64,000 nucleotides of DNA. Source: a virus. Numbering within the stretch: the first letter of the stretch is position 1; every line of letters starts with the position of its first letter. The translations under genes and the position numbers were made by a program. Below are positions 3,501 through 39,419 of this stretch, in pieces. The stretch covers positions 1 to 64,000 of the IMG/VR virus record IMGVR_UViG_3300027977_000033. One strand, written 5' to 3'. Below the pieces are notes generated by a model. It saw nothing but the letters and a program-made list of their open reading frames with translations. It had not been told where the DNA came from and made no database searches.

Positions 3501-3824
3501 CTCACAAACCTTTCGGACGGGCGGGACAAGAGTGATGTAAGAGACCTTTCTGCTGGGCTTGATTTTGTTGGCAAACTAAGGCCAGTAAGTTTTGTTTGGG
3601 ATACCAGAGACAAGGCGAAGGTTAATATCCCTGATTCTGGTTTTATTGCACAAGAACTTCTTGAGGCTCAAAAAGAAACTGGGGTTGTTATTCCAAACTT
3701 GGTGAGTCAAGAGAATCCAGAAAAACTTGAGGCTGCATATGGGACATTGATCCCAGTGCTTGTACAGGCCATCAAGGAACTTTCTGCAAAAGTAACCAAA
3801 TTAGAAAACCAGCTGAAAGGATAA
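600..3824 (+). CDS. Long repeat tail fibre/spike with C-terminal S74 chaperone
   Basis: A 1074-residue fibre preceded by an AAGGAG ribosome site. Residues 1-300 are Ala/Ser/Gly/Thr-rich, as in fibre stalks. Residues 308-783 are 28 repeats of a 17-residue unit (pattern xxNTTGxxNTAxGxxAL) that resembles YadA-head-like beta-roll repeats. An insert with a TIQSIGTTDFTLIGA module follows, then four more repeats. The C-terminus matches the Peptidase S74 intramolecular chaperone: LSDGRDK, later GFIAQE, and a terminal coiled coil. In that family the chaperone helps trimer folding and cleaves itself off before a Ser; here Ser972 is the likely site, releasing about 103 residues. The role is host recognition at the tail. 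Function is strongly supported; the exact receptor is unknown. Confidence 0.88.
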   Translation: MAALTGQTIASTYPQLLKTAAAGGLSASPTIVEDGDGTSSALSLSTAGASVAGTLAASGNFAVNTNKFNVVASSGNTAVAGTFDTAGDFKVSVNKFTVAALTGNTVVAGTLNVSGAAGFSSNVNVLGSLSAASLNPTTLVVGGTASVVGNFDVNSTKFTVDATSGNTTVAGTLGVTGAITGSLTGNASTATTLATARTIAISGDITGTATSFNGSANIAIASAITAGSIVDADVNASAGIVDTKLATISTAGKVSNAATTATSVNTPSTIVLRGASGEFACGQINQTSLSRGAGSISTNTAVGLDTLLANTTGNNNTATGLNALLSNTTGSSNTATGVNALRANTTGINNTASGSRALENNTTGGSNTATGLNALRANTTGGSNTASGFQALYSNTTGNNNTATGLNALLSNTTGANNTASGVEALQSNTTGGSNTASGLQALYSNTTGSNNTASGLEALRLNTTGNNNTATGFQALENNTTGINNTATGLNALQSNTTGGSNTATGLNALRANTTGGSNTASGFQALYSNTTGNNNTATGLNALLSNTTGINNTASGSRALENNTTGSFNTASGVEALRLNTTGGSNTASGLQALYSNTTGSNNTAFGYRSLDANTTGTNNTASGLSALQSNTTGGSNTASGFQALYSNTTASNNTAFGYRSLDANTTGTNNTAIGSESLGANTTGNNNTANGYFTLTANTTGASNTATGDKALQGNTTGIVNTATGVNALRANTTGGNNTATGANAMLLNTTGDFNTADGANALRLNVTGDYNTAIGNTALYHNGIVATAGSFVIGVSYTIQSIGTTDFTLIGAASNTVGVVFTATGVGTGTGTASSNTSYNTASGHEALYNNTTGSSNVASGALALKDNTTGGSNTATGVSVLENNTTGSSNTADGYGALYSNTTGSFNTAIGQQAGQGTGTNSNTTGTNNTFVGYQAVGASSTASNVITLGNSAINLLRCYAPLTNLSDGRDKSDVRDLSAGLDFVGKLRPVSFVWDTRDKAKVNIPDSGFIAQELLEAQKETGVVIPNLVSQENPEKLEAAYGTLIPVLVQAIKELSAKVTKLENQLKG
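1521..2948 (+). repeat. 28 tandem 51-bp units encoding 17-residue NTTG/NTA repeats
   Basis: I count 28 units of exactly 51 bp with no length change. Most begin with AACACAACTGGA. Some blocks look identical by eye over about 150 bp at an offset of 408 bp (8 units; compare from 1686 with from 2094), which points to recent recombinational copying. The repeats lie fully in frame within the fibre gene. They also create long open frames on the other strands, which are not genes. Confidence 0.9.
2949..3155 (+). other. Non-repeat insert in fibre, GTTDFT-type module
   Basis: This stretch interrupts the 17-residue repeats. It encodes a segment containing SYTIQSIGTTDFTLIGA and then FTATGVGTGTGTA. I know this module type as a recurring piece of aquatic phage structural proteins; its structure and role are not known to me. 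It looks like a swapped cassette inside the repeat array. Confidence 0.6.
3156..3359 (+). repeat. Second block of four 51-bp fibre repeats
   Basis: Four further 17-residue units (starting YNNTTGSSNVASGALAL) resume after the GTTDFT insert. They are more divergent at the DNA level than the first block, consistent with older copies not homogenised with it. Confidence 0.85.
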
Positions 3825-8724: not shown

Positions 8725-10779
8725 ATGCCTAGGATTTCAGCCTTACCCGTCGCGACCTCGGCTCAGATTACAGACGAGATACCAATCGTACAAGGCGCTG
8801 TCACTAAGAGACTTTCTTTTGCGACCGCACAGTCTTCAGGTCTTTTCTTACCCGCTGACAATTCGATTTCCACGGCAAAACTGGTTGACGACGCTGTTAC
8901 CGCTGACAAGTTGCAGGCTGATATTTCCAATAACGCTAACCGTGCGGTAACATCCAACCATATCCAAGATTCGGCTGTTGTCACGGATAAGATTAATAAC
9001 CTTGGGGTAACAACCCCCAAGCTTGCGGACGGGGCTGTGACAAACGTAAAGCTTGCCGCGAATTCTCTGACAATTTCTAAGTTTACTACGATCGATCAAA
9101 TTTATCTACAAAATGCTGGGACAGCTAGGCCTGGAACAGCCGTCATAACTAATGGTTCGGTGGAAAATATAGTTGTGTACCAACAGGGTTCCGGATATTT
9201 GTCGACCCCGAATGTCGTGATTAGCCCTTCCCCGACTGGTAACACCGCAACTGCTGTTGCTACTTTGACTGGGGGTGCCGTAACTTCCATAGCTGTCTCG
9301 AACCCAGGGTCAGGCTATATCACAGATCCAACTGTCACCATTGACGCCAGCCCTGGGACAACGGCTAAAGCTTTTGCTTATGCTATTACCAGCGGACTGG
9401 CGGCGCAAGACGATGGGAACCTAGGTGTCGGCTCAGAGCAAGCTGGATTTTTTATCACGGCCGATAAAAAAGTGAAAGTGGTTGGCTATAACAACTACAC
9501 CAAGAATGCAACCGGTGTCGGCAATTCTAGCAACCCTCTTCCTTCGGAGTGCGCTGTTGGCACGAGCTCTGGATCTTATGTAAAGCCTTACAAGATATAC
9601 GGAGCATATAGCAACACTTACATGATTGACACGCTTGGTCGAGTTTATAGTTGTGGGAGTGGGGCTAACAATGGAAACGGCCAAGCGGGAACAAGTGATC
9701 TCGCGGTGCTCTACCAAATCCCCTCCACGTTCTTCGGGAACAAGCCAGTAGTTCAACTTTCGTATACGGCGAACAGCACGGCCACAACCGTTATTGCTCG
9801 GACAGCGGACGGGAAAGCCTACGGTTGGGGTTACCAGAATTACGTCCCCCTCGGGAATGGCTCAGCCGCTAATGTGGCAACCCCTATTGCTATTGCAAGC
9901 GGAAATACGCTGACCGATGTTAAACTCATTGGCGGTCAGACTTACGCTTCATCCTTGTTGATTGAAGCCGGCACCGGACAGGTTTTATGTTCGGGATACA
10001 ACGGTTACGGGCAACTCAGCCAAGGCAATACAACGGATAGAACCACTTTTGGGTACTATCTAAAATCCGCCGGTACTCCATTGGGGGCCGGAGCGGAAGG
10101 AAAGGTGATTAAGGCACTCGGATCTGGTGATGGTTCTTATTGCTATACAGTTCTCTTAACCGATCAAGGTAAAGTATTTACATCTGGGTATAACGGGCAC
10201 GGTCAACGGGGGACTGGGGGCACCACTGCCACAAACGCTGGGTATGCTAACGAAGTCATGTCCAGCGGGGCTGTTGATATCTATGTCCCCGTTGGAAATA
10301 CTTCCTACAGTTACACGATGATCCGAAAATCGGATGGTTCAGTATGGGCCGCCGGTTACAGCGGACATGGAAATTTCGGAAACGACGGGACAGCCGGTAC
10401 CAATTCAACTTTTGTTCAAGTTTGGAATCCGGCCACACAGGGAACGACAGCAGTTAAATTAGTTTTAGCCGGAGCTAATAATTATTTCACCACATACTTA
10501 TTAGGCGCGAACGGGGTTCTTTACGTCTGTGGCCGAAATGATTACGGACAGTTGGGAGACGGGTCAGCGACCCAAAGAAATTCTTGGGTACAGACGAATT
10601 TAAATCCTGGGGTAGCAACCATTGTTGATTTCCGAGTTGACAGCTACGGACACGTCATCAACCCAAGAGTCTTGATGAGTGATGGGAAAGTTTATACCTG
10701 CGGCTATAACGGAAATTGGTCTTTAGGAAACGGTTATGCCTACAGTTATTACGCAACTTGGAACAACATCCTCTTTTAA
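8725..10779 (+). CDS. Tail fibre with RCC1-like seven-bladed propeller
   Basis: 684 residues. Residues 1-130 are a fibre stalk with repeated D.AVT..KL motifs. Two GSGY modules follow (about residues 155-165 and 192-202), a type common in aquatic phage fibres. From about residue 290 to the end I see seven repeats of the form G.VY.CGYNG.GQLG (for example GQVLCSGYNGYGQL and GVLYVCGRNDYGQLG), the signature of RCC1-type beta-propellers, which have seven blades. The propeller is most likely the receptor-binding tip. No S74 chaperone is present. It lies between nozzle and adaptor genes. Confidence 0.78.
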   Translation: MPRISALPVATSAQITDEIPIVQGAVTKRLSFATAQSSGLFLPADNSISTAKLVDDAVTADKLQADISNNANRAVTSNHIQDSAVVTDKINNLGVTTPKLADGAVTNVKLAANSLTISKFTTIDQIYLQNAGTARPGTAVITNGSVENIVVYQQGSGYLSTPNVVISPSPTGNTATAVATLTGGAVTSIAVSNPGSGYITDPTVTIDASPGTTAKAFAYAITSGLAAQDDGNLGVGSEQAGFFITADKKVKVVGYNNYTKNATGVGNSSNPLPSECAVGTSSGSYVKPYKIYGAYSNTYMIDTLGRVYSCGSGANNGNGQAGTSDLAVLYQIPSTFFGNKPVVQLSYTANSTATTVIARTADGKAYGWGYQNYVPLGNGSAANVATPIAIASGNTLTDVKLIGGQTYASSLLIEAGTGQVLCSGYNGYGQLSQGNTTDRTTFGYYLKSAGTPLGAGAEGKVIKALGSGDGSYCYTVLLTDQGKVFTSGYNGHGQRGTGGTTATNAGYANEVMSSGAVDIYVPVGNTSYSYTMIRKSDGSVWAAGYSGHGNFGNDGTAGTNSTFVQVWNPATQGTTAVKLVLAGANNYFTTYLLGANGVLYVCGRNDYGQLGDGSATQRNSWVQTNLNPGVATIVDFRVDSYGHVINPRVLMSDGKVYTCGYNGNWSLGNGYAYSYYATWNNILF

Positions 10780-16351: not shown

Positions 16352-19300
16352 ATGGCCGTGATCAACGAGGAGGATCTGCAAGAGTACCTCGAAGAACAAC
16401 GGGCACTTGCCGAAGCCCCCGAAGAATTTGAAGCTCCAGTAGCTCAAGTTCAAGAAGCTCCAGCCCAAGAGTTTACAAACTGGGATTCTTACACCTCGGA
16501 TCCTGAATATCAGACCCTCGATTCATCGGAAAAGCAGGAGTTGTACGACCGGTGGCGTCAATACGCCACAAATTACTTAGCATCAACGGGGAACCTGACC
16601 ACCAAAGACGATCTAGAATTTACCAAAAGCTATTTTTCGGGCATTGCGGAACAAGAAGGGCTCAAAGGAGCAGACTACAAACCACCAAATTATGCCGAAC
16701 AGTTGATTCAACAGGGTCAGTCTGGTTACAGGTCGCTGGAATCTGGTGTTGCGGGATACGGTGCATTGATTGGTGTAGCAGATACCGAGAGCGCAGCCAA
16801 TGCGATCGCAGAAAGGAACAGACAAGAACAGGATAAATACATCAGCCCTGAATTCCAAGAGTACGGCAATAAACAACTTGGATTTTTTGGGGCGGTAAAA
16901 GAAATCGTAACGAACCCGTTTGATTTGGCGCTGCCGTTTCTAGCGCAAAGCATGGGATCGAATCTCCCAGCCTTGGCCAGTTCACTTGGCATTGCTGGAG
17001 TAGGTGGGGCGGTTGCTGGGCCAGCCGGTGCAGCAAGTGCTGGCTTGTATTCCAGCGCTATCTTGGGTGGGGCAACTGATGCTTTGGTAACCGTTGATCA
17101 GTTGATCAAGGAAGAAGTCCAAAAGCGTGGGCTTAACCCGACGGATCCGCAAGCGGTTGCTTCAGTATTAGCTGATCCAGAGTTTAAGACGTATGCCATC
17201 AAGTACGCCAATGCCCGTGGCTTGGCGATCGGAGCGACGGGGCTGGCTGCGTTTGGGCTCGGGACTATTTTAGCTACCCCTGCTCGAGAGATTGCCAAGG
17301 CCGGCGTACGGGGAATTGCCGGAGAGGTCGGGAAACAAATTGGAATTCAAGTTGTCTCAGAACCGGTTGGTGAAGTTGCAGCCCAAGCCGGAGCTCAAGT
17401 AGCGACTGGCCAACCGATTGATATTAAGGGGCGAGAGGTAGCCGAAGAATTAGTTGTTGGCTTACCCATGTCCGGAGTTGAGGCTGGGGTCCTGACCTAC
17501 AAAAACTTGGTCGAGAACAATGCGCCGGCCACCGCCGACGAAGTTCTAGTTAATCAAGTCTCTGACTTTCGGAAGCAGGAGTTGGAACGGGCGTTGGCTA
17601 GAAATGAAGTGGATAAGTTTTATGGGGTTCTTTCGATAGGGGAGAAAGCAAAAACTCTTGGTCTTGCCCCTAACGCCGTGCTTACGGGCGAACAAAGTAT
17701 TTTTGACACCCTAACCACGGAAGAAAAACAAGCGGTACAAGTTGCTTTCGAAGCCACGAAACAAAGAGTTCAACCTCCGGTGCTTGCTCGGGAAGAAGTC
17801 CCAGCGCAAGCAGGGGAACAACCTCCGGTTTTAAAGGAACCTGTCGCAAAGGTTGCGGCTGAAGTGCCTCCGGTTTTAGAGCCTCAAGTTACGGCAGAAG
17901 AAGCCGAGGCAGAGGCGGCCAAAGCGTTTGAGCAGGCGTTGGAGACGACGCCTCCCGCTCCCGAAGTGGCGGTTACACCGCAAGAAGCCGTCAGAGAAGC
18001 CGGGGCAGAGGCTGGTGTTCCGGCTCCTGCGCCAGAGACGACGGCTCCGATCTCGGAAGCGGTTCAAGTTCCACTTGAGCAAGTAGCTCCGGCGTCAGCT
18101 CAGGCTGTTGCTGAGACCCCAGCTCCTGCCCCAGTACCTGAAACACCAGCAACCCAAGAAAAAGATTTGGAAGAAATAATTTCAGACGCAGCCGACAGTC
18201 AAAGGGGGAAGCCAGAATCAGTGATGATGGATGTGACTATGAAACTTAAAGACGAAACAGCGTCATCTCCATCATTAATAGATCTATTAGAACATGTTGG
18301 AGATCTCTCTAATAGAGCACAAAAAAGAAATGCTATTACGAATGTCGAAGAAAAGATAAGAAAAGTTGAAAGGTACGGCCAAGACGGAAGAGACACATTA
18401 GAGAAAGAGATTGAACAGGGGTACCGAGACAATGCGGAGTACAGAGTACTAAAATCTATACCAGAACTGGCGGCGTTAAGGGACAGGGTTGGAGAGCCCG
18501 AAGGACCCACGTCTTTGTTTGAGGTTTACGAAAGAGTAAGGAAAGAGCACGGGTCTAAAATCGAGGCAGAGATAAAAAGATCAAAAGAGATTGCAAAGCA
18601 GGAGCTTAAAAAATACGTAGAGGCCCACGAAAAATTTAATAAACCAGTAACTAAACTGGGAAAACTCGGAAAAGACGCGGCTATTGCTTTAGGGAATCAA
18701 GACTTTAACAAATTGAGAAGTATTGTTTCCGAGATGAGAAAGTGGATAGACACTTATAATAAAGCCAATGAACAAAAGAGAGACACAATGTTCAATGAGC
18801 TAGCAGGAAAACCAACTACTGCCCCAGTAACTCAGAAACTTCCCCCTACCAAGAAACAAGTTACAGTTCTTTCTAAACTGGGGTATTTACCGGCGGACAT
18901 CGAAGGGCTAGATAGGGTTCAAGCAAAAGAGATTATTGGTAATCAAACTCCGAAGACCCCAACCATTGAAGCACCGAAAGAAAAAGTCGAAGCCCCAGCC
19001 CAAGCAGGAACCCCTGCTCCCGCCGTCCCGCCAGCCCCTGTCGTCGGAGAAACCCCTGCCGCCTCGGCACAGCCACCGGCTGGAGAAGTTAGTCTACCTG
19101 TGGCACCTCCAGCGAGTGAACCAACCACCCAGACGTCCCTCGAAGAGAGATTAGGCCAAGCGGATAAAAAACTTACAGCGCTTCTCGAAAAGCTGGGCGG
19201 GGTTCTCGGGTCGGATGTCAAACTAGACGCAGCTTCAGTTGCTGCTTTTTTCGGAGGAGTTCCAGATCAAGCCACTCAGGCTCGTATTGAATCCGTTTTA

Positions 19301-22300
19301 AAGCTCGTCAATCTAGGGCTATCCAACGTCAAAGCGAGGTTGAAGAAAGCCAAGGCTGCCGGTCGTAATCTCGAAGAGACTTTTACTAACATTGATAAAT
19401 TAGTTTTCACAAATAACTATCAAGGGGGTGGGGGCATTTACGCCGATCCTCGTAATCCGTTTGAAGCTGGGACTCTCTACATTAACCCAGACCAATTAAC
19501 GAGAGTACTCATGTCGGATCTCACGCTAAACCCAGCCGACTTTTTTGCGTCTATGCTGGAGGAAGAAGTCATTCACGCCAACCACGGTAAGGCGATGGTT
19601 CGGGCTTTTGTCCAGACTTTTCCGCCCGAGAAAAACAAAGAAGTGTACGCTTCCCCAGCGGCTACTCTGGAAGCATATATTAAATTTTACGACGCACAGA
19701 ACGCAGAGATTGAGAATAGCCTGACAATCGATCAAATTAAAAATGTTGTTGGTAAGTATGCTCAGTCCTTGGGTATAGACCTAGCGGGAAAAACTAAAGA
19801 ACAAATTGTTCAAGAGTTCAACGTGGGTCGTCCGGGAAGACTAGCAGAAGAATACTTGCGGGCTTTAATTCAAGGCCGACAGCTTGGGTCTATAACAGAA
19901 GAGCAAGTTCGGGGTTACACGACTCGGCCTATTTTAAGAATCTTGGGGGCGTTGCGTAATTGGTTTAGAGACTTGGTTGGCAAGGGAGTACAGAAAAGAA
20001 AAACTTTCGTAGATAGACAGCACGACGCTATTTTATCGGTTCTTCTTAGCTCATCCCCGACCGAACGTTTAGCGGCTCAGGGTGAGATTAACACCGCGAT
20101 ACCTGGGCGCATCCTTGCGTCTAGCATTGATCCGTTCGCCGAAGAACTCAACAGACTTAATAAAAACACAAACGCCAAGCTCGAAGCAGAGATTCAAAAA
20201 GAGTTTGGGCCTAGGAATAAAGAGACAGGCGAGGGAGGTCTTTGGAGAAGGACTATCATTGGGAGACTGAAGAGGTCATTCCCAGCAGTAGACCCAACTG
20301 AGGTAGAGAGCTTGGTATACGCTTCTATTCCGGAAGCGATGGGTTCCTTTGACGAAGACAAGGGAGCTAAGTTTCCAACTTATTTATACGGAATTGCTCA
20401 GAAAAAAATCCTGAGAGAAAAATATAAAACCCTTAAAAGAAGAACTAGAGAAGTGGCGAGTTTTCAGGCTCCAGGTTTTTACAATATTCCGTTGAGTTTA
20501 AAGTCGGCGCAAGAAGCAGATATTGAAGCGGAAGCAGAAGCTCCAATTGAATCCGAAGATCTAACTCCTGAGCAACGTGCCGAAAAACTCTTGGCTAGAG
20601 CGCCCAGCCTTGAAAAAGAACTTGACGCACAAGAAAAAGTTTCTCCGGTTTTGGAAGAAAAAGCAGTTGCTGCGGCCTATGAGCCAGAAACTGGCAGAAC
20701 AAATTTGGCGGAAGAAGGACAGGAACTTGAAGAACTTACCCTAGCCGATGGCGAGGCGATAAGCTCTTTGGACGCAGTATCCGCTGAAAAACGCACAGCT
20801 TACCTTGAGGCCCAGCTAGGTGAAGCGGGCAAGTTGCTGGCCACCGCGGCCAAAGCACTGGGGTTAACTAAGATTGAAACAGAAGTCTTGGCGTACGCCG
20901 CGGACCCAGATGGTTCTATTCTAACGCGAAAAGAAATCACCGATAAATACGGATTAACCAACGACCAGTTTACGAACATGAGGGATGACGTTCTTACTCG
21001 CATGCGCGAACAGCTTGGCCGTGCCGGTGTGACAAGGACGGCTGATGTTCTGGCTTCCTCCATCGATCCAACCCGAAGTCAAGCGTTAGCTCGCGCCAAG
21101 ACTACCCTGCCGGCGGACGTTGCTGCTGAGATCGATACTATCATTCAAGATCCTTTTACCGATGCGGGACTTACTAAATTAGCTAAAGACTTTGTTAAAG
21201 CCAACTCGCCTAACGGCGATGTCATGCATGCCAAGCGTATTCTGGATGGGCGACCGAATATGAAAGAGAGAGAAAGGTTAGCCGTCTTAGGCGTAATTGG
21301 GGTTACTCTAAGAAAACGAGTATCTAAAGTAAACGAAGAAATTAAAAAGAAAGGCAGGAGCCCAGAAAGATTGGCGCTTAAAAACTACTTAGACACAAAC
21401 CTCAGAGAAGTTTTTATTAAGAGCCAGCAAATCAGTTCAGAATTTGGTCAAAACTTAAGGTCAGCCCGCACAAACAACGCTCTGTACCTCCCTTACCATT
21501 GGGAGGGACTTTATACTGGGCCTATAGGTAGCCAACAAGAAGAACTTCTTCGAACCAAACAAGAAGTGATAAAGGCCAGAGCTGAAATAGAAAGACTTTT
21601 GGACATCATTAGTGGGGACGCTGTCGATGGGATTTACATTAAACCGCCCGAATCTCCAGATGACGATGCCAAAATTGGGGTCGGAGACAAACCAATTAAA
21701 ACCCCTCTTCCAGAGGGAGAAAACTTTTACGAACTTTTATCTCTATTCGGAGACATGAGCCCTACAGAGGGGGAAACTTTTAGCGACTACCTGCAAAGGC
21801 TTGGGGTTAACTATGATGATGTAGTTTCAAACTTAGAAGGCATGAAGGCAGCCTCGGTTTCGCCCGCAGCGGTTACAAAAATTCTACCGGAGGGTTTAAA
21901 AAACTTATCTGCTAAAGAGGCGATCCGCAAGTTGGTTGCTATCGATAAAAACTTTTTTGGTAAGCTGGTCGCACTCCGAATTAAATCAGGTGGCGGGACG
22001 ACTGAAGCTCAGGTTGCGGAAGGGCTGGATCGCAAAAAGTTGGACGTGAAAGACAGGCCAGCAGAACTTCAGACCGTATTTGATTTCTTCGGTTCGACGG
22101 AGAGTACGAAACCAACCTCGGAAGCCCCAATTGAAAAAGACATCCTACCCCCGTTGGTTCGTTTGGCTAAATACGCAGCTGATACAATTACAGATCGGGT
22201 CATGCGCTCGCTCGGGGCAGATAAAGCAAAGATGGAAAAGGGGTCCTTTGAAAAGTTGGAGCGTCAAGTTCGAGCTCTAGTTAATGCTCAATTCAGACAA

Positions 22301-25063
22301 GAGACCAACCCAATCCAAGCCAGCAAAGAAGACACGAGATCTGTTGAACAGCGATTGCTGGACATGGTACAACGAATCCAACTTGCCGAGACCGTCTTTA
22401 ACGATGTAAAGGCTAAGTTGCAGGCGGAAATAATCGCAGATAATCGAGCTAAAGAACTAAAGGCTGAAACCCAACTGTCAACAAAAGAGAGGGCGGATCT
22501 AGAAGCAAGGGCCAATCGTTTGTTTAACCCGAACGCTATTAATAGCCTTGATAGTTTACTGCGTAAGACAATTGATTTTAAGGCGGAGGCTCGTAAACAC
22601 ATGAGCCAAAGGGGGGCGTCGGTCGAGTCTCTTACTGAAGTGATAAAGACTAAGTTTCCAGGTTTCACGCCGGCTCAAGCTGAATCTCTAGGAAAATTTT
22701 TAAGTTCTCGATACGCAAGAATTCTTAAAGAAAGCGGAGAGAGACAGCTCTTGAATATTACCCGAAGGCTTGGGGAAAAGGCAACAGCTATGCCCAAGGG
22801 GAAAATGCAACAGCTTTTAGAACTTATAAATCTTGGGGCGTTTGACGAAGAAAAATTCTATAACGCTATTGCAGAACGCTATGATATCCCAGACTGGGAC
22901 CCAGCAATAGCGGAAGAGATTCGTCGACAAGCAGATGTTCTTCAAAACTTACCCTTGGGTTCCGATCAACAAGCCACGGCAACCTTTCAACTTCAAGCTT
23001 ACATTGCACAAAAAGTAAACAAACAAAAAAGGGGATGGGCTAGATTAGGTCGCAATCTTGATGTTGCCGCCTCTGTTTGGAAAGCTGGAGTTTTATCTGG
23101 GCCCCCCACTCAAATTGTTAATTTAGGGGCCACTCACTTGAACGTATTGTTTGAACTTTTAGCTGAAGCGAATGCGTATAAAAAACTGGCGAAGACGAAA
23201 GGAAAAGATGCGAAGTTTGGTGATTTCTTTAAGACGGGTCTGATCGCTTACTGGGACACAGTAGGCCGAGTAGGGGTTGAGCAAGCTAGTGACGCTTTCT
23301 CTACCGGTTTGACCAGATTTCGAAACGAAAAACAGATTGAGCTTTCTCCTTTAGAAGTTTTTAAATTCGATACGGACAAAACTTGGACCTTCAATAATTA
23401 TATTGCTGCTTGGAAGATTGTCGGGCGGGCTATGGCGGGAGCGGATACCTACAACTCGGTCATTGCGAATGAAGCCAAAGCCAGAATGGCGGCTAGATAT
23501 GCTTTGCTGACAGAGGGTCTGACGGCCGAAGAAGCCACTAAAAGAACGCAAGAAATTTTTGATAGGAACAGTGCCACTTCAGTTGCCTTGCAAGAGCAAG
23601 TCAACCGAGAGGAAGCTGACGAACAGTTTGGTTCTCTTGCTGGGCTAGATCCCAAAAGCTCTGCCTATCGGTCTACGAAAAGAAATATAGAGGCGGGCAA
23701 GCGTCGCAGATTTGAACAGTTGCGGGATGAAACAATCGCCAAGGAAAGTAAACTTGGAGAAACAGGAATGCAGGCAATTCGAGACTTCACACAGAAAGCA
23801 ACTTTTAACAACCGACCAGAGGGGTTGATCGGATATATTGGCGGGGAAATTGTGGGAGCACTTGCGGGGAAAGTTCCGCTACTGACCCCATTTGCTGCGT
23901 TTCCTCGGACGATCGCGAACATTATTAATTCTGGACTCAACTATACTCCTTACGGATATGCTCGAGCTTACGGGTTCTCTATCGGAAACATGTTTGATAT
24001 AATCCGTACGGGTAATTATGCTTTCAAGGCTCCCGAACAGGGAAGCGTTGAGTTCCATAAGCTACAGGCTCAAGCCTTTTGGGGTTCTATCGTAGCGTTT
24101 ACTTTGATAGGTCTTGCACTCAGAGATATAGATGAAGATTGGGACGATGCTTTCTTCGCGGTAACTGGACGAGGCCCTGCAGACGCGGAACAAAGGGAAC
24201 AACTCCGAGCATCTGGCTGGACAGAGAACACCGTTAAGTTTGGCTCGTTGCGCTTTAAACATACAGATTTCCCAGGCCTTAATACTATCTTCGGAGCGAT
24301 GGCTTTGGTGTCTGACATGTATCGATATGGCAACCTGAAAGAAGAGGACCTTGCAACTATTGCCACAACGGCGGCAATGTCTATTGGAAACTCTATCTTT
24401 GACAAGCAATTATTGAGCGGGGCAAAAACTTTATTTGAAGCAGTATCTGACCGAGGCAATTCTTCGGATAAGGCAAAACGGCTCATTCAAAGCTACACCG
24501 GTGGGTTTTTGAATCCTGGGTTTGCGAGGTGGATGACGAAAACATTTAATATTGGAGCCGACGGTATGGTGGGGGTCGTCGACTATAAAGAGCTTAACTC
24601 TACGACAGCGGGGTGGTTGATGGGGCTTACCCCAATGGCCGTTGTAGTCGGCAAACCAGAGCTCAATCGTCTGGGAGAACCCATTCGAGAATACCCCTAC
24701 ACAGCAACAATGAGACGGTTTGGATTTGTGCCAGAGGTAAAAGAACACCCGGTGTTCTCCCCATTAGTGAAAGCCGGCCTGTTCGTTCCTGGCGCTAGCA
24801 TTGGGCTAAAGATAAAAGATTTTGAAAAGGGCAAGGTTGTTCAGCGCAAGATGGACCGAGAAGAGTTTTACAACTACTCTAAATATAACGGAGAATACTT
24901 GCGACGCCGGTTAACCCCGCAGAAAGCTCAAGCCTTGGCCAGACTCGCCTCGCGTAGCCCAGAGGTAGCTCAAAAAGAATTGGAGAAACTCGCCGGGGAC
25001 GCTAGGGAGTATGGTAAAAATAGGATTGAGCAGGAAATCCGGATTAAACGCCGAAGAAAATAG
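16352..25063 (+). CDS. Giant internal virion protein (2903 aa) with sigma-like module
   Basis: 2903 residues, last of the three core genes, so placed like T7 gp16 but about twice as long. In order: a charged N-terminus; hydrophobic Gly/Ala segments at about residues 190-245 and 285-310 (possible membrane channel); Pro/Ala/Glu-rich linkers at about 470-610 and 855-930; a zincin-like spot EEEVIHANH near 1070-1078 that lacks a full HEXXH; a sigma-70/ECF-like module at 1300-1556; helical regions; a segment with SGPPTQIVNLGATHLN near 2250; and hydrophobic segments near 2490-2530 (GGEIVGALAGKVPLLTPFAA). The last regions resemble polyvalent phage proteins ejected into the host. No lysozyme domain is seen. 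Ejection with DNA is inferred from the T7/N4 model. Confidence 0.78.
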   Translation: MAVINEEDLQEYLEEQRALAEAPEEFEAPVAQVQEAPAQEFTNWDSYTSDPEYQTLDSSEKQELYDRWRQYATNYLASTGNLTTKDDLEFTKSYFSGIAEQEGLKGADYKPPNYAEQLIQQGQSGYRSLESGVAGYGALIGVADTESAANAIAERNRQEQDKYISPEFQEYGNKQLGFFGAVKEIVTNPFDLALPFLAQSMGSNLPALASSLGIAGVGGAVAGPAGAASAGLYSSAILGGATDALVTVDQLIKEEVQKRGLNPTDPQAVASVLADPEFKTYAIKYANARGLAIGATGLAAFGLGTILATPAREIAKAGVRGIAGEVGKQIGIQVVSEPVGEVAAQAGAQVATGQPIDIKGREVAEELVVGLPMSGVEAGVLTYKNLVENNAPATADEVLVNQVSDFRKQELERALARNEVDKFYGVLSIGEKAKTLGLAPNAVLTGEQSIFDTLTTEEKQAVQVAFEATKQRVQPPVLAREEVPAQAGEQPPVLKEPVAKVAAEVPPVLEPQVTAEEAEAEAAKAFEQALETTPPAPEVAVTPQEAVREAGAEAGVPAPAPETTAPISEAVQVPLEQVAPASAQAVAETPAPAPVPETPATQEKDLEEIISDAADSQRGKPESVMMDVTMKLKDETASSPSLIDLLEHVGDLSNRAQKRNAITNVEEKIRKVERYGQDGRDTLEKEIEQGYRDNAEYRVLKSIPELAALRDRVGEPEGPTSLFEVYERVRKEHGSKIEAEIKRSKEIAKQELKKYVEAHEKFNKPVTKLGKLGKDAAIALGNQDFNKLRSIVSEMRKWIDTYNKANEQKRDTMFNELAGKPTTAPVTQKLPPTKKQVTVLSKLGYLPADIEGLDRVQAKEIIGNQTPKTPTIEAPKEKVEAPAQAGTPAPAVPPAPVVGETPAASAQPPAGEVSLPVAPPASEPTTQTSLEERLGQADKKLTALLEKLGGVLGSDVKLDAASVAAFFGGVPDQATQARIESVLKLVNLGLSNVKARLKKAKAAGRNLEETFTNIDKLVFTNNYQGGGGIYADPRNPFEAGTLYINPDQLTRVLMSDLTLNPADFFASMLEEEVIHANHGKAMVRAFVQTFPPEKNKEVYASPAATLEAYIKFYDAQNAEIENSLTIDQIKNVVGKYAQSLGIDLAGKTKEQIVQEFNVGRPGRLAEEYLRALIQGRQLGSITEEQVRGYTTRPILRILGALRNWFRDLVGKGVQKRKTFVDRQHDAILSVLLSSSPTERLAAQGEINTAIPGRILASSIDPFAEELNRLNKNTNAKLEAEIQKEFGPRNKETGEGGLWRRTIIGRLKRSFPAVDPTEVESLVYASIPEAMGSFDEDKGAKFPTYLYGIAQKKILREKYKTLKRRTREVASFQAPGFYNIPLSLKSAQEADIEAEAEAPIESEDLTPEQRAEKLLARAPSLEKELDAQEKVSPVLEEKAVAAAYEPETGRTNLAEEGQELEELTLADGEAISSLDAVSAEKRTAYLEAQLGEAGKLLATAAKALGLTKIETEVLAYAADPDGSILTRKEITDKYGLTNDQFTNMRDDVLTRMREQLGRAGVTRTADVLASSIDPTRSQALARAKTTLPADVAAEIDTIIQDPFTDAGLTKLAKDFVKANSPNGDVMHAKRILDGRPNMKERERLAVLGVIGVTLRKRVSKVNEEIKKKGRSPERLALKNYLDTNLREVFIKSQQISSEFGQNLRSARTNNALYLPYHWEGLYTGPIGSQQEELLRTKQEVIKARAEIERLLDIISGDAVDGIYIKPPESPDDDAKIGVGDKPIKTPLPEGENFYELLSLFGDMSPTEGETFSDYLQRLGVNYDDVVSNLEGMKAASVSPAAVTKILPEGLKNLSAKEAIRKLVAIDKNFFGKLVALRIKSGGGTTEAQVAEGLDRKKLDVKDRPAELQTVFDFFGSTESTKPTSEAPIEKDILPPLVRLAKYAADTITDRVMRSLGADKAKMEKGSFEKLERQVRALVNAQFRQETNPIQASKEDTRSVEQRLLDMVQRIQLAETVFNDVKAKLQAEIIADNRAKELKAETQLSTKERADLEARANRLFNPNAINSLDSLLRKTIDFKAEARKHMSQRGASVESLTEVIKTKFPGFTPAQAESLGKFLSSRYARILKESGERQLLNITRRLGEKATAMPKGKMQQLLELINLGAFDEEKFYNAIAERYDIPDWDPAIAEEIRRQADVLQNLPLGSDQQATATFQLQAYIAQKVNKQKRGWARLGRNLDVAASVWKAGVLSGPPTQIVNLGATHLNVLFELLAEANAYKKLAKTKGKDAKFGDFFKTGLIAYWDTVGRVGVEQASDAFSTGLTRFRNEKQIELSPLEVFKFDTDKTWTFNNYIAAWKIVGRAMAGADTYNSVIANEAKARMAARYALLTEGLTAEEATKRTQEIFDRNSATSVALQEQVNREEADEQFGSLAGLDPKSSAYRSTKRNIEAGKRRRFEQLRDETIAKESKLGETGMQAIRDFTQKATFNNRPEGLIGYIGGEIVGALAGKVPLLTPFAAFPRTIANIINSGLNYTPYGYARAYGFSIGNMFDIIRTGNYAFKAPEQGSVEFHKLQAQAFWGSIVAFTLIGLALRDIDEDWDDAFFAVTGRGPADAEQREQLRASGWTENTVKFGSLRFKHTDFPGLNTIFGAMALVSDMYRYGNLKEEDLATIATTAAMSIGNSIFDKQLLSGAKTLFEAVSDRGNSSDKAKRLIQSYTGGFLNPGFARWMTKTFNIGADGMVGVVDYKELNSTTAGWLMGLTPMAVVVGKPELNRLGEPIREYPYTATMRRFGFVPEVKEHPVFSPLVKAGLFVPGASIGLKIKDFEKGKVVQRKMDREEFYNYSKYNGEYLRRRLTPQKAQALARLASRSPEVAQKELEKLAGDAREYGKNRIEQEIRIKRRRK
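20114..20134 (+). other. LASSIDP heptapeptide, upstream copy
   Basis: Residues 1255-1261 of the giant virion protein read LASSIDP, just before the sigma-like module. An identical heptapeptide lies after the module at residues 1567-1573. Six of the seven codons differ between copies, so identity is kept at the protein level and is not a fresh DNA duplication. It may be a processing site or a structural motif. Confidence 0.6.
20249..20464 (+). other. Sigma region 2-like domain inside giant virion protein
   Basis: Residues about 1300-1371. The stretch EVESLVYASIPEAM, then FDEDKGAKFPTYLYGIAQKK and ILREKYKTLKRR, follows the sigma-70/ECF region 2 pattern: an acidic start, LV, a helix, FD...G..F.TYLY.IA, then a basic helix ending in RR. 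In sigma factors this region binds the beta-prime clamp helices and the -10 element. The match is by eye. Confidence 0.65.
20849..21020 (+). other. Sigma region 4-like helix-turn-helix inside giant virion protein
   Basis: Residues about 1500-1556. LGLTKIETEVLAYAADPDG, then RKEITDKYGLTNDQFTNMRD and VLTRMREQL, fits sigma region 4: an L..(R/E)E.EVL helix, a helix-turn-helix with (E/K)EI...(Y/L)G(L/I)(T/S), and a basic recognition helix. It lies about 130 residues after the region 2-like part, separated by an acidic linker, the order found in ECF sigma factors. Confidence 0.62.
21050..21070 (+). other. LASSIDP heptapeptide, downstream copy
   Basis: Residues 1567-1573 of the giant protein, just after the region 4-like domain. 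Together with the upstream copy it brackets 305 residues (about 34 kDa), the size of a compact sigma factor. Possible protease recognition site; not proven. Confidence 0.6.
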
Positions 25064-34280: not shown

Positions 34281-36533
34281 TTATGGTTTCTGAATGATCC
34301 CCAAATAGGAGACCAAATCTTTCGTGGATGAAGCCTTATATTTCTTGAGCCACTCTGAATCACTGTGCCATTTCTCTCGCTGGAGACGAGTCCAACGAAC
34401 CATCGGCCAGCCTCGGAGCAAGACATCGGAGTGATGCTTGACTACGAGATCGTCGTCTGGTTTGAATGACTCGAGTGTCTTGCCAGTCATAAGCTCCTTC
34501 AAATCATAACTCTCGTGTTGCTGGATGAGATGAGCTAAGCTGATGACTTGGCTGGTGTACTTGAAGCCCAACAACTCAACCATTCTCTTGGCTGGGTGCT
34601 GGTCTGGAAGATTGGATTCTCGAATTGCTTTGGGCAAGTCGCCACTCTTCCAGTTGTCGGCGTCCAAGCAAGCATAAGCATCAAAGATGTTACGCTGTTC
34701 GGTATCGCACAAGTCAAACTCGAGCCGACGCCAGACCAGTTCGCCCAAGGCTTGATTGTCCTTGAACATGCGGGTCATAGCATCTCGGAGTCCAACCGCA
34801 AAGAGAACACCGTCCTCGGGTATCTCCTCGCCCTTCTTCTTGGCGAGTAGCCTGCCCTTGAACAACTTGGCTTGAGTCAACTCCTGCACCAGTTTCTTGA
34901 GGTTGCTGTTGCTGGTGCGACTGACACCTACTGGTTCGAACTTCTCAATCTCAATCCACCAATCATCTTCGGTGTACTCCCCATCGATTAGCTTCCAATG
35001 ATCAGACTGCTTGCTGGTATGTCTAGCCAAGTCCATATCCAACTCGAACACCTTACCCTTGGTGTGCTTGGCGTTCTTGTCGTAGGACTGAGCACCGCCG
35101 ACCGTATTGGAAGGAGGCTCGGGTAATGTGTTGTAATCCACATACTTGATCTTGGCTAGCTCCGTGTGGGTCTTGCACAGATCATCCCAATTCTTCTTGG
35201 TCGTGATGACATAGACAGTTGCGTTCTCCTTGATGTGATCGTTGGCATACGCATACTTGAGTCTGCCAGTACGGAAGTGTTTCTTGTCGGGGACAAGGAA
35301 CACTTGCACATATCGATTGACCATAATCGAGTGCGGCGATTCCTGGCGGAGTCTGTTCTTCCCCCAGTTACGCCACCCGCACATCGTCACGGACAGGTCG
35401 GGGTGTACAACATTCGACCCGTCGACTATGACCATCGGCAGTTGGATGACGCCGTCCACCTTCTGACCTTTCCATAGCACCTTGTTCTTGATCTTCTTGA
35501 GCAGGTTCTCCATTCCAGAATTGGAAGTGTAGTGCCGACTCTTGAAGATGTTGGATTCGACGCAAGCATCCCACCAAGTCGGTGCGTTCTGAATGCGTTG
35601 CTCAACGACCTGTGCCAAGCTGTCGATCACCTTCTTAACCTCGGCGGTCAATCGCTTGACGGTCATTGGCGTGTACATCAGAGCCTCACGACTCGGAGCA
35701 ACTTGCAGTCCCCCAACCTCGATCTCGAGGGTGATGCCCAGACTGCTGGCAACCGCCAGCTCATCGGGCAACTTGAAGGAGTTGAAGTTGATTGGATACT
35801 CGACATCGCCCATCACCACAAAAGAATTGGTATTCTCATTGGGGTCTGTAATCCGCCAGTTGTCCTCCATTAAGACGACAGCTTGCGGCACGTTGTTGAT
35901 GCGGAGATGTTCGTCGGGTGTTGCATTGCTCACCGTGGGTTTAACACGGAAGACATTGAACACTTCGACTGCGGTGCTTCTGAATCGGTCGATGTCGTTG
36001 GCCTTGACGGGCAACTTGACCTCGACGCCATTGGGTTCGTCCGTCTCGGACTCCTCCAAGATATCGAAGGCTGGCACACCGAACTCATCTTTGAAGCATA
36101 CCAACACCCACTTCCTACCACCCTTGATGCAGGTGATAGTCCATTGGTCGGTATAGGCTGCGGGTGCTTTGCACCCCAGCCCGAAGCCACCAGTATACTC
36201 ATTGCTGGTAGATTTGTATTCACCAGACGAGCCGTAGCTTGCCATCAGCTTGCCGAACTCGTCGATGTTTAAGCCTAGTCCCTCATCCTTGATAATGAAG
36301 GTCGGCCCAGAAGTGCTTGGAAATGTCACCTTGATTGGCGACTTGTTTCCGCTTGCCTTGTGGGACTCGTTGGCGTTCACGGACAGCTCTCTTATAACCG
36401 CCTTGATTGGGTCTGCATACAGACCCGACAAGATGCCCATTATGTGGGCTCGGTTTGCCAGATTGACTGTGAACTGTGCCCTCTTGCCCAGAGTCTTGGC
36501 CACAGGGTTGAACCTTGACTGCGTTGTGATCAT
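34281..36533 (-). CDS. rIIA: rIIA-like protein with GHKL ATPase domain
   Basis: 750 residues, ATG after GAAAGGAGAAA. The first 150 hold GHKL ATPase motifs: ELSVNANESH (N box), DEGLGL (G1) and GGFGLGCKAP (G2). The rest is long, with mixed helices and no further clear motif, as in rIIA proteins. In T4, rIIA works with rIIB in the membrane and affects lysis inhibition and exclusion. Its 5' end is overlapped by an upstream frame (36283-36735), which is unusual. Confidence 0.82.
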   Translation of the reverse strand: MITTQSRFNPVAKTLGKRAQFTVNLANRAHIMGILSGLYADPIKAVIRELSVNANESHKASGNKSPIKVTFPSTSGPTFIIKDEGLGLNIDEFGKLMASYGSSGEYKSTSNEYTGGFGLGCKAPAAYTDQWTITCIKGGRKWVLVCFKDEFGVPAFDILEESETDEPNGVEVKLPVKANDIDRFRSTAVEVFNVFRVKPTVSNATPDEHLRINNVPQAVVLMEDNWRITDPNENTNSFVVMGDVEYPINFNSFKLPDELAVASSLGITLEIEVGGLQVAPSREALMYTPMTVKRLTAEVKKVIDSLAQVVEQRIQNAPTWWDACVESNIFKSRHYTSNSGMENLLKKIKNKVLWKGQKVDGVIQLPMVIVDGSNVVHPDLSVTMCGWRNWGKNRLRQESPHSIMVNRYVQVFLVPDKKHFRTGRLKYAYANDHIKENATVYVITTKKNWDDLCKTHTELAKIKYVDYNTLPEPPSNTVGGAQSYDKNAKHTKGKVFELDMDLARHTSKQSDHWKLIDGEYTEDDWWIEIEKFEPVGVSRTSNSNLKKLVQELTQAKLFKGRLLAKKKGEEIPEDGVLFAVGLRDAMTRMFKDNQALGELVWRRLEFDLCDTEQRNIFDAYACLDADNWKSGDLPKAIRESNLPDQHPAKRMVELLGFKYTSQVISLAHLIQQHESYDLKELMTGKTLESFKPDDDLVVKHHSDVLLRGWPMVRWTRLQREKWHSDSEWLKKYKASSTKDLVSYLGIIQKP

Positions 36534-36735
36534 TCACTTTCTCCTTTCTTGTTAGGGTTACATTCCATATCGATACCGAGTCGGGGTCTCCGAACCCGAT
36601 CAGATGATTCTTGAGGGGTTCAGCTTCTTCGATTCTCGTGAACAAATAGTTACACGCAAGCACATTGTCCTTATCGAACAAGGCATACGCATCCCATTTC
36701 CTCACGGCATCGTGTACTTTTACTCCCTTACTCAT
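36283..36735 (-). CDS. Hypothetical protein overlapping the rIIA start
   Basis: The frame starts at ATG 36735 with an ATGA overlap to the previous gene. Residues 1-67 look like a genuine small protein (VRKWDAYALFDKDNVLACNY, then LIGFGDPDSVSIWNVTLTRK). The frame then runs 250 bases into rIIA in another frame. The rIIA ribosome site lies inside it. The last part may be a run-on after loss of a stop, or a true overlap; I cannot tell from sequence alone. Confidence 0.5.
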   Translation of the reverse strand: MSKGVKVHDAVRKWDAYALFDKDNVLACNYLFTRIEEAEPLKNHLIGFGDPDSVSIWNVTLTRKEKVNDHNAVKVQPCGQDSGQEGTVHSQSGKPSPHNGHLVGSVCRPNQGGYKRAVRERQRVPQGKRKQVANQGDISKHFWADLHYQG

Positions 36736-37052
36736 CCGAGTGTCGGGATTAAGCTGGATAAGAACTTGGGGAAGGACTTCTCCACCTTGCACCCGCTCAC
36801 CAAGGATTCTGCATCGTGGATACCACGAGCCTTCAATTCCCCGATCAGCTTGGTCACGGAGATGTCAGACCTCGAGCCTTGGCTGGCCGTGATCTGCCAC
36901 TTGAGACCTTGGAAGTGTGTCACTCCCTGCTTCTCGAGTGCCGTCTTGAACACGGGCATGATGCTCTCTCGGAGCTTGTCCGCATTCAACTTGGTCTGGT
37001 TGTACTCGCCGAACAAGTCCACTTGTTCTGCTGTGTATATTAGTTTGCTCAT
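36732..37052 (-). CDS. Hypothetical protein (106 aa)
   Basis: 106 residues with a strong AAAGGAGGAAC site. Contains YTAEQVDLFGEYNQTKLNAD, then KLIGELKARGIHDAESLVSG; mostly helical. The Lys/Ser-rich strand-turn VTHFQGLKWQITASQG may be a small sheet. Unknown function. Confidence 0.58.
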   Translation of the reverse strand: MSKLIYTAEQVDLFGEYNQTKLNADKLRESIMPVFKTALEKQGVTHFQGLKWQITASQGSRSDISVTKLIGELKARGIHDAESLVSGCKVEKSFPKFLSSLIPTLG

Positions 37053-37079
37053 ATGTTCCTCCTTTTATTGGTTGGTGTA

Positions 37080-37097
37080 CCCCACCTAACGGCGGGG
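37080..37097 (-). other. Short GC stem-loop between minus-strand genes
   Basis: CCCCACC and GGCGGGG flank a 4-base loop (TAAC), a 7-bp stem with one wobble. It lies between two genes and has no T-rich tail, so it is more likely an RNA-processing or stability hairpin than a terminator. Confidence 0.4.
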
Positions 37098-37104
37098 AAA
37101 TCTG

Positions 37105-37374
37105 TTAGCCCATAGCTTCTTCAGCTCGACGAGACGCCACTTCACTAATGGCCTCCTCCGCGGCGAGTTTGATATCTTCGGGGATAACCCCGTCGAAGTC
37201 GCACACCATAAGGTTATTGATCTCGACATCTTGGGTCACATACGACTCGTAGTGCTCGTGGTATCCGACTGGCCCGATGTCCTCCTTCTCAAGAGTGACG
37301 ACGACATCAGCGGTTACACAATACTCTTGGCCGTTATGTTTGAACTCTGTCTCTACATCGGTCTCCCAAGTCAT
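37105..37374 (-). CDS. Acidic hypothetical protein (89 aa)
   Basis: 89 residues, strand-rich start (GQEYCVTADVVVTLEKEDIG), helical end (DIKLAAEEAISEVASRRAEE). The ATG overlaps the upstream stop by ATGA. No known family. Confidence 0.55.
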   Translation of the reverse strand: MTWETDVETEFKHNGQEYCVTADVVVTLEKEDIGPVGYHEHYESYVTQDVEINNLMVCDFDGVIPEDIKLAAEEAISEVASRRAEEAMG

Positions 37375-37622
37375 ATTTCAAACTCCATTTGCTGGGCTAC
37401 TGGTTCAATCTGATAGCCATATGCCCAGTTGCCAGACGCTAGGTCGAACACGCAACCACTCTTCTCGGCCACGGGTATGGACTCCACGGGGTCTCCATAC
37501 TTGCCGCCGTCGGGGCACTTGTCGATGTTCACTACCTTGGTCTGCTTCCAGCCATCAGTTCCGAACGAACCCCGCCACCAGACGAGGTCACCTTTTTGGA
37601 TTGTCATTGGTTTGAGTGTCAT
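37371..37622 (-). CDS. Hypothetical protein (83 aa)
   Basis: I take ATG 37622, coupled by ATGA to the upstream stop, not a longer in-frame start. Contains MTIQKGDLVWWRGSFGTDGW and a later strand-rich end; the start resembles small SH3-like barrels. Function unknown. Confidence 0.55.
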   Translation of the reverse strand: MTLKPMTIQKGDLVWWRGSFGTDGWKQTKVVNIDKCPDGGKYGDPVESIPVAEKSGCVFDLASGNWAYGYQIEPVAQQMEFEI

Positions 37623-37807
37623 TTCGCCTCCCCAAACTCGACAACCCCGCAACGGTTCCCGTTGAGGTCGACGAGTTTCTCGGGGACGAACCCAGAGGCC
37701 ATCGAGTCGGATACTTCACCGAGGATTCTGGATATCTCGGCGAACATTCCGTTCTCCTCAAAGGCTTGGTTGCCCGTCTGAATTTCGATCTTGAACTTGT
37801 GTTTCAT
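37619..37807 (-). CDS. Small protein, paralogue A of a tandem pair (62 aa)
   Basis: 62 residues with RBS AAAAGGAGG. FKIEIQTGNQAFEENGMFAE, then LVDLNGNRCGVVEF, parallels the gene at 37898-38131 (FKVEVKVGGDAF, then LKDSNGNKVGTTDF). So this is a small duplicated family separated by one short frame. Role unknown. Confidence 0.6.
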   Translation of the reverse strand: MKHKFKIEIQTGNQAFEENGMFAEISRILGEVSDSMASGFVPEKLVDLNGNRCGVVEFGEAK

Positions 37808-37901
37808 TGTTATCCTCCTTTTGGTATTCGATCAGCACGGAGTATAGAATCTCCTGCCAGTCGTTGATTGCCTTGTCCATCTTGGATTTTGGATGCTTCA
37901 C
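37758..37901 (-). CDS. Short protein (47 aa), overlaps both neighbours
   Basis: GTG start at 37901 overlapping the upstream stop (GTGA). The product (MKHPKSKMDKAINDWQEILY, then SVLIEYQKEDNN) is helical and charged; its last 16 residues overlap paralogue A's start region. The coupling supports it, but it is short and unrecognised. Confidence 0.4.
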   Translation of the reverse strand: MKHPKSKMDKAINDWQEILYSVLIEYQKEDNNETQVQDRNSDGQPSL

Positions 37902-38131
37902 CGCTTGCCCTTCTTCTTGGGCACAGTCACGATGCGTTGTTCAATTCCAGCGTCGATAAAGTCGGTTGTCCCGACCTTATTCCCGTTGCTGTCTTTGAGA
38001 TACACGCAGACAAACTCTTTACGCATCTCATCGACGAGACCTTGGAATATCTTAGCCAATTCTGGCCAAGGTGTGGGCTGGAAAGCATCGCCTCCCACCT
38101 TCACCTCGACTTTGAATACTGCTTCGCTCAT
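37898..38131 (-). CDS. Small protein, paralogue B of a tandem pair (77 aa)
   Basis: 77 residues, strong AAAGGAGGAG site before ATG. FKVEVKVGGDAFQPTPWPEL, then LVDEMRKEFVCVYLKDSNGN, shares pattern and order with paralogue A downstream. Basic C-terminus KKKGKR. Function unknown. Confidence 0.6.
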   Translation of the reverse strand: MSEAVFKVEVKVGGDAFQPTPWPELAKIFQGLVDEMRKEFVCVYLKDSNGNKVGTTDFIDAGIEQRIVTVPKKKGKR

Positions 38132-38253
38132 AGGTCAACTCCTCCTTTCTTTAATAGCCATACCGCGGCAAAACCCAGCAGGATGCAGGGTAATACCCAT
38201 TGGCCGATCTTCCAGAACACGAGTGCCAGGAATACCGCATTCTCAATGGTCAT
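38128..38253 (-). CDS. Small membrane peptide (41 aa)
   Basis: 41 residues (MTIENAVFLALVFWKIGQWV, then LPCILLGFAAVWLLKK) with one long or two short membrane spans and a basic end. Both ends overlap neighbours by ATGA. Early phage membrane peptides of this size often act on the host envelope; the target is unknown. Confidence 0.6.
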   Translation of the reverse strand: MTIENAVFLALVFWKIGQWVLPCILLGFAAVWLLKKGGVDL

Positions 38254-38486
38254 TTACGCCTACCTACTTGGATGTTGGAGTTGCGATTCTCGAACCGAGT
38301 CCGATGATATCGCTTCTCCATGATTGCTTCGATGATGGGTTCGCTGGCTCGGTGGAATCGTTTGGACTTACGCCCAACATCTCCACTCCCTCGGATGCAT
38401 CGCACATCCACGAGGTCTCGCCTGCCCGTTATCTTGTCCCACTCTTGGGGGCGTTCGATTGGATTCAATATGATGTCGTCTTGCAT
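38250..38486 (-). CDS. Small basic protein (78 aa)
   Basis: 78 residues, Arg-rich (GRKSKRFHRASEPIIEAIME, then KRYHRTRFENRNSN). Likely binds nucleic acid or an acidic partner, by charge only. Overlaps the next gene upstream by 22 bases. Confidence 0.52.
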   Translation of the reverse strand: MQDDIILNPIERPQEWDKITGRRDLVDVRCIRGSGDVGRKSKRFHRASEPIIEAIMEKRYHRTRFENRNSNIQVGRRK

Positions 38487-38677
38487 ATACCTCCCATTTC
38501 CTCATAGGTCTCGCCTGCCAGAGCCAAGAAGTCATCCGACTCCTTTCTTGTTAGCTTGCAAGCCAGACCCAGAGCTTGTTGAGTAGCATCTGACTCGTCC
38601 TTGGCGTGGATACACACGGCCATACGGCCGAATGGATTCTCCCATGCCCAGACGAATACTCTGTATTCTTTTTGCAT
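38465..38677 (-). CDS. Small hypothetical protein (70 aa)
   Basis: 70 residues. KEYRVFVWAWENPFGRMAVC, then HAKDESDATQQALGLACKL; a strand-helix pattern typical of small domains that pack as a sheet on a helix. No known family. Confidence 0.52.
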   Translation of the reverse strand: MQKEYRVFVWAWENPFGRMAVCIHAKDESDATQQALGLACKLTRKESDDFLALAGETYEEMGGICKTTSY

Positions 38678-38686
38678 ATAGGCTTT

Positions 38687-38926
38687 CTATACCGCCCGCC
38701 CGCCTGCGAAAAGAACATTCCGCAGGACAGACTGCTGGCCTTTGCGATTGGTTATCTTCTTGTGGCGTTCAAAATCCTCGGGGTTCTTGAACACTTGCAG
38801 AATCCCACCCGTCTTGTGGTGGAAGTAAAGTGCTCCCCGATAGCGTGGGACTTCCACACTACGGGGAACACTTACTTTCCTCCCTACTGGATAAGGCGGG
38901 GTTCGGGTTACGACCCCGGCGTCCAC
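38687..38926 (-). CDS. Small basic hypothetical protein (79 aa)
   Basis: GTG start at 38926 is assumed; a later in-frame GTG is also possible. Contains YRGALYFHHKTGGILQVFKN, then RHKKITNRKGQQSVLRNVLF. Basic, without known family. Overlaps the upstream gene by 19 bases. Confidence 0.42.
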   Translation of the reverse strand: MDAGVVTRTPPYPVGRKVSVPRSVEVPRYRGALYFHHKTGGILQVFKNPEDFERHKKITNRKGQQSVLRNVLFAGGRAV

Positions 38927-39153
38927 ACGGGGAAGAGCTTGTCCAGCTCTGCCTGCGAGGGCATCTCGTATCGGATTTTGACTCCGAAGTCGGATGCTTT
39001 CGCATTCACCATCCGCAGGTCGGCGTTGTATTCACGCTGAGCCTGCTCGATGGCGAACTTGGGGTTGCGGTTGGCAGAACCTACATAGTCAACTCGGTTG
39101 AGCTTGGCTGAGTATGTTCCATTGGAATTGCATATGATGGTATGCTCTTTCAT
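38908..39153 (-). CDS. Hypothetical protein (81 aa)
   Basis: 81 residues beginning MKEHTIICNSNGTYSAKLNR, then NRNPKFAIEQAQREYNADLR; strand-rich start with an Asn/Arg-rich helix. RBS AGAAAGAGG before ATG. Function unknown. Confidence 0.55.
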   Translation of the reverse strand: MKEHTIICNSNGTYSAKLNRVDYVGSANRNPKFAIEQAQREYNADLRMVNAKASDFGVKIRYEMPSQAELDKLFPVWTPGS

Positions 39154-39224
39154 TGGTTACCTCTTTCTGTTTGGGTTTACCTTGTCTTACCTTCACCTAG
39201 CGATGAAGGGTGTAGAGTCCTCGG

Positions 39225-39386: not shown

Positions 39387-39419
39387 TGCATTCTCCTTTC
39401 ATTTGGTTATATACTGCTT

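Follow-up and report, generated by a model that had tools for sequence, protein, structure and literature searches.

Giant protein P0001 and its relatives

The question raised by this locus is whether a giant phage protein carries a sigma factor that could reach the host cell together with the phage DNA and direct transcription there. The DNA analyzed, referred to below as the window, is a stretch of 64,000 nucleotides that belongs to an uncultured virus record of 65,820 bases. The protein concerned, P0001, is encoded by the last gene of an apparent virion gene block, in which tail spike-like and structural matches were found at 600-3824. A preliminary description, made from the sequence alone, had placed a sigma-like module at 20249-21020; this interval corresponds to P0001 residues 1300-1556 and lies in an uninterrupted frame. 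The coordinates of the features are listed in Table 1.

Table 1. Features of P0001 and their positions in the window
Feature	P0001 residues	Window position	Strand	Basis or remark
Giant protein P0001 gene		16352..25063	+	2903 aa, ATG, uninterrupted frame; full-length homologues in seven further phage records
Hydrophobic segment, possible membrane contact	290-309	17219..17278	+	Hydropathy >1.5 across 19 residues
Mobile domain (sequence comparison)	580-822	18089..18817	+	65% identity with a stretch in P0002 (L001)
Conserved domain before the module, with E-E-x-x-H	985-1245	19304..20086	+	In all members; none of the Pfam families exceeds its cut-off
Border motif LASSIDP, copy 1	1255-1261	20114..20134	+	Same border conserved among relatives
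Sigma region 2, contains FDEDKGAKFPTYLYGIA	1297-1368	20240..20455	+	Pfam, profile comparison, predicted fold
Acidic linker, replaces region 3	1369-1471	20456..20764	+	Mostly low AlphaFold pLDDT (predicted disordered); composition
Sigma region 4-like helix-turn-helix domain (predicted)	1472-1557	20765..21022	+	Fold matches 8jzt_E and 3hug_K; profile comparison
Border motif LASSIDP, copy 2	1567-1573	21050..21070	+	Codons unlike copy 1
C-terminal stretch	2505-2714	23864..24493	+	PHROG 6651 'internal virion protein', E 2.8e-10

Relatives were collected using a second rightward gene of the window (56094-58385), which gave 27 loci. In the records of these loci, the giant protein had six homologues of complete length, and a later search added that of L100, making eight complete proteins including P0001. 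The preliminary description held that absence of the module from all relatives would count against it; the module was found in all eight complete proteins. In seven records with complete proteins, the Pfam family Sigma70_r2 (PF04542) gave one match each, inside the giant gene, so no other sigma gene of this type is apparent there. The dN/dS values of the module were 0.03 for region 4 in the pair L055/L056, and 0.09 for region 2 and 0.05 for region 4 in the pair L052/L054; the C-terminal core gave 0.03-0.04 in the compared close pairs. By these ratios, the module is clearly under purifying selection between close pairs. Searches of bacterial genomes with two queries found no relatives, and every member found so far is an uncultured virus contig.

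Two further proteins were compared with P0001. The sigma module was not found in P0002 (L001), a distant giant protein. Residues 580-822 of P0001 match L001 10001-10729 at 65%, and P0002 is otherwise unalignable; on sequence comparison, this segment is a mobile domain passing between giant proteins. P0003, another distant giant protein, contains a weak sigma-2-like stretch, INDAIRYAASKFDPTKNNNFKGFASRTIGQRL, at L065 6650-7500 (residues ~850-1130), with a Pfam E of 0.0053 for the L065 record, and its profile comparison score was within background.

Identification of sigma region 2

P0001 residues 1297-1368 are sigma region 2. The evidence from P0001 as a single sequence is thin: Pfam Sigma70_r2 gave E 0.055 on the whole protein and E 0.0018 on a 137-residue piece, both under the curated cut-off. 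Among the homologues, Sigma70_r2 was detected in six of seven modules (best 1e-5), and the curated cut-off was exceeded in three relatives (28.3, 27.9, and 24.5 bits). When the module was compared with phage records at E up to 10, all 14 records matched belonged to SPO1-group phages or Dp-1 and aligned at the sigma factor gene, a few of these genes being labelled hypothetical. The best match of this kind came from a relative, the L056 module, which aligned with SPO1-type sigma factors by tblastn at E 1e-4 with 36% identity across region 2. The sole PDB sequence match of the module was the sigma factor WhiG, the top NCBIfam match was a sigma factor, and a profile of five modules searched against the PDB gave sigma factors in nine of ten rows.

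Profile-profile comparison was performed with seven reference sigma profiles, known or annotated (RpoD, RpoS, RpoH, FliA, RpoE, SPO1 gp2.21, and Dp-1 gp69), and a 100-residue segment slid along the whole aligned giant protein served as the control. Region 2 was recovered at 97.7% with a score of 67 at residue 1301, compared with at most 19 outside the module. Pfam in the relatives, tblastn, profile comparison, and the predicted fold described below all concur with the region 2 proposed in the preliminary description.

The residues of regions 2.3/2.4 read FPTYLYGIA, a TYLYxIA-like ECF pattern comparable to that of E. coli RpoE. At the core-binding residues of region 2.2, where RpoD has an acidic residue followed by Q-E, most members keep the acidic first position and the Q-E pair is absent. 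This pair is present in most aligned cellular sigma factors; SPO1 gp2.21 and Dp-1 gp69, annotated phage sigma factors, likewise lack it.

Predicted structure, region 4, and the acidic linker

An AlphaFold model of the module, built on a seven-sequence alignment, showed helices of good confidence at module residues 36-107 and 211-296; most of the linker had low confidence. The model places region 2 and region 4 folds in sigma order with a disordered linker between them. The preliminary description had proposed AlphaFold as a check, and its statement that the two regions stand in the right order with an acidic linker between them agrees with the model and with the composition (27 D/E and 9 K/R among 112 residues in P0001). 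Acidic residues exceed basic ones in the linker of every relative measured.

In a Foldseek search of the PDB (best E 1.5e-4), each of the 50 matches listed was a sigma factor, either by itself or as a subunit in an RNA polymerase complex; the large overall rmsd arises because the model does not fix the placement of the two domains relative to each other. Z values of about 7-8, which alone are unremarkable for helical proteins and take their weight from nearly all matches listed being sigma factors, were obtained for both domains: the region 2 model matched 5uxx_C, RpoE of Bartonella (Z 8.1, rmsd 2.3 over 83; the best fold row), and 3ugp_A (Z 7.4, rmsd 1.8 over 64), and the region 4 model matched, over 69 residues each, 8jzt_E (Z 7.2, rmsd 2.5) and 3hug_K (Z 6.9, rmsd 2.6). 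The predicted region 2 fold thus lies at rmsd 1.8-2.3 from solved region 2 domains, and 3ugp_A is the one solved in complex with -10 DNA. The L052 module, 28% identical, was modelled separately at lower confidence and likewise had only sigma factors among its 50 listed PDB matches, with weaker E-values (best 0.012); the two models draw on the same seven sequences and are partly dependent.

The Pfam region 4 models gave no matches in the module, so the assignment of region 4 relies on fold and profile comparison, in which the fitted piece scored 34 against a background maximum of 21 elsewhere in the protein. Region 4 is weak by sequence and clear by predicted fold, and P0001 residues 1472-1557 are predicted to have the sigma region 4 fold. 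The helix-turn-helix that the preliminary description read as region 4 is therefore upheld by the model and the profile score, and is not matched by the Pfam region 4 models. Its sigma identification as a whole was borne out by every computational test run, apart from the sequence-family match for region 4.

A border motif around exchangeable modules

The motif L[AS][AS]S-x-DP flanks the sigma module and also brackets exchangeable neighbour modules. It occurs in two copies where the sigma module stands alone (the window and L053) and in three where a second module follows (L055, L056, L057, and L100); in L052 and L054, the motif is degenerate. A loose form of the pattern gave just two poor matches elsewhere in the window, among the longer frames that were examined. 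In L057 and L100, the variant [LI]SAS-x-DP is used throughout all copies. The same residues are encoded by different codons and variants are shared within a protein, as expected for a site recognized by one enzyme, which makes cleavage the likeliest role of the motif. A recent DNA duplication was also considered as its origin and was rejected since the copies differ in codons. In P0002 (L001 7268-15394), the similar phrases QYSERG and QMSERG lie about a thousand residues apart and may be the counterpart of the LASSIDP border.

The second slot varies among the relatives. In L052, it holds ART-PolyVal, an ADP-ribosyltransferase (4.8e-14), and in L057 and L054, the modules carry HEFIH and HELIH, respectively, both of the form HExxH. 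Family searches gave no identification for the second slot of L055, L056, and L100.

A zincin-like metallopeptidase processing domain is common, though not universal, in polyvalent proteins. P0001 itself yielded no peptidase with an intact HExxH. The conserved domain that precedes the module (residues 985-1245) is possibly a peptidase relative; its E-E-x-x-H is not an intact zincin motif.

Comparison with known systems

P0001 is probably an ejected virion protein of the polyvalent type, as judged from its protein class. It was placed with these proteins by the PHROG internal virion match at its C-terminus and by ART-PolyVal in one relative. The published proposal for polyvalent proteins is that they enter the cell with the phage DNA, undergo processing by metallopeptidases, and assist the start of transcription; they often bear host-directed effectors (PMC5512222). 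The P0001 group resembles them as a giant multi-domain phage protein with exchangeable payloads including ART-PolyVal, and several disparate domains stand in one protein, with the sigma module beside ART-PolyVal in L052 and a variable second slot among the relatives. The group differs in having the sigma module and the repeated border motif around its payloads. In the founding paper on polyvalent proteins (Iyer et al. 2017), 'sigma' occurs 0 times (PMC5512222). The preliminary description knew of no virion-packaged sigma domain of this kind, and nothing relevant appeared in the literature searched, which covered few subscription journals.

The closest sequence relatives of the module, SPO1 gp2.21 and gp69 of Streptococcus phage Dp-1, have likewise lost the Q-E pair of region 2.2. 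They are free-standing and made in the infected cell, from inside which they operate, whereas the sigma of P0001 is a module of a probable virion protein and has a long acidic linker. ECF and EcfG-type sigma factors have the same two-domain build without region 3, supply the best fold row (5uxx_C), and share the region 2.3/2.4 pattern; the P0001 module has, in contrast, a much longer acidic linker, a divergent region 4, and a fusion to a giant protein. With the virion RNA polymerase of phage N4, the shared proposed logic is that transcription specificity resides in a giant virion protein before phage gene expression. N4 delivers a whole polymerase, whereas P0001 would deliver only a specificity factor and host RNA polymerase would be used. 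No T7-type or other single-subunit RNA polymerase was found among the large proteins scanned. The comparison of P0001 with T7 gp16 is by position alone.

Proposed role and alternatives

The best reading, which we hold to be somewhat better than an even bet, is that a virion-delivered sigma factor redirects host RNA polymerase, perhaps after excision at the border motifs. The analysis shows the sigma folds (for region 4, as predicted by the model), the order and conservation of the two regions, the border motif, and the swappable neighbouring slot; virion location, ejection, release, RNA polymerase binding, and promoter use are what we infer. P0001 would be carried in the virion and ejected along with the DNA. 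Its payload module, residues ~1262-1566, would act as a two-domain sigma factor, in which region 2 would grip core RNA polymerase and open the -10 element, the flexible acidic linker would substitute for region 3, and the region 4-like helix-turn-helix would read the -35 element. By binding host core RNA polymerase, the module would lead it to phage promoters ahead of any phage gene transcription. Cuts at the L[AS][AS]S-x-DP motifs on either side may free it from the polyprotein.

Several points speak against this reading: the absent family match for region 4, the lost Q-E pair of region 2.2, and the failure to find a motif common to promoters. A sigma factor tethered in a 2900-residue protein might also miss RNA polymerase unless released, and a peptidase with an intact HExxH did not turn up in P0001 itself. 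In intergenic sequence from three genomes, dyad and k-mer searches yielded nothing clearly exceeding shuffles, and the shared -10/-35 motif suggested in the preliminary description did not emerge from them. Sigma-70-like sites in 36000-55000 were not commoner than in shuffled sequence (13 found versus 18.9 expected). The wider claim, that this lineage ejects a sigma module in a motif-bounded polyprotein and thereby programs host RNA polymerase before any transcription of phage genes, along with exchangeable effectors such as the ADP-ribosyltransferase, seems to us evenly balanced.

One alternative is a sigma mimic. A delivered module that sits on core RNA polymerase or on promoter DNA, silencing the host rather than starting phage transcription, would be in keeping with the missing canonical Q-E pair, the divergent region 4, the lack of dedicated promoters in our searches, and the host-directed effectors that polyvalent proteins often carry (PMC5512222). 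Both promoter-contacting domains are conserved in all eight proteins, however, and a pure blocker could dispense with region 4, so we regard a mimic as unlikely. Slightly less likely still is a sigma fold repurposed as a virion component that binds DNA, serving packaging or ejection without a role in transcription. The module does lie inside a protein that is probably internal to the virion and is conserved along its full length, yet its region 2 is like the portion with which sigma touches polymerase and the single-stranded -10 DNA, and the slot beside the module carries an enzyme as payload, ART-PolyVal, rather than a structural part.

If the giant protein were made late and retained in the producing cell, the sigma module could drive late genes undelivered. 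The virion location of P0001 is itself a deduction, and the SPO1 and Dp-1 sigma factors work within the infected cell. Against retention stand the homology to an internal virion protein and the polyvalent neighbours, which favour delivery, and the place of the gene as the last of the apparent virion block, by position a late product; we consider retention distinctly improbable. Chance resemblance to sigma factors could be argued from the single-sequence Pfam scores under the curated cut-off, but relatives score above it, sequence, profile, and fold methods concur, and other segments of P0001 were unmatched, which leaves coincidence scarcely credible.

If virion delivery of a sigma factor holds, it would bear on how phages begin transcription on entry. 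Among the known routes, a phage may rely on ordinary promoters of the host type, inject a polymerase of its own (N4), or inject enzymes by which the host RNA polymerase is modified (T4 Alt); delivering a sigma factor would add a route at much lower cost. Such a factor would also be a new payload type for polyvalent proteins and would give a direct handle on the start of infection in these uncultured phages. The border motif renders the processing of a polyvalent protein directly testable.

Other observations in the window

Within the virion block, the gene at 8725-10779 matched the PHROG 'regulator of chromosome condensation' and tail/baseplate families. In the rest of the rightward block (54358-63541), the proteins scanned had no family matches. 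The segment at 47354-47847, upstream of the minus-strand gene for DNA polymerase A, is strongly conserved in relatives (~74-90% identical in at least nine records) and holds near-identical blocks without a clear large gene. The Rfam search gave zero matches at the gathering threshold, including for this segment, which is possibly an origin, a small RNA, a small gene, or a control region. In the leftward gene block, an RIIA-type protein is encoded at 34281-36533 on the minus strand (PHROG 612, 1.6e-87).
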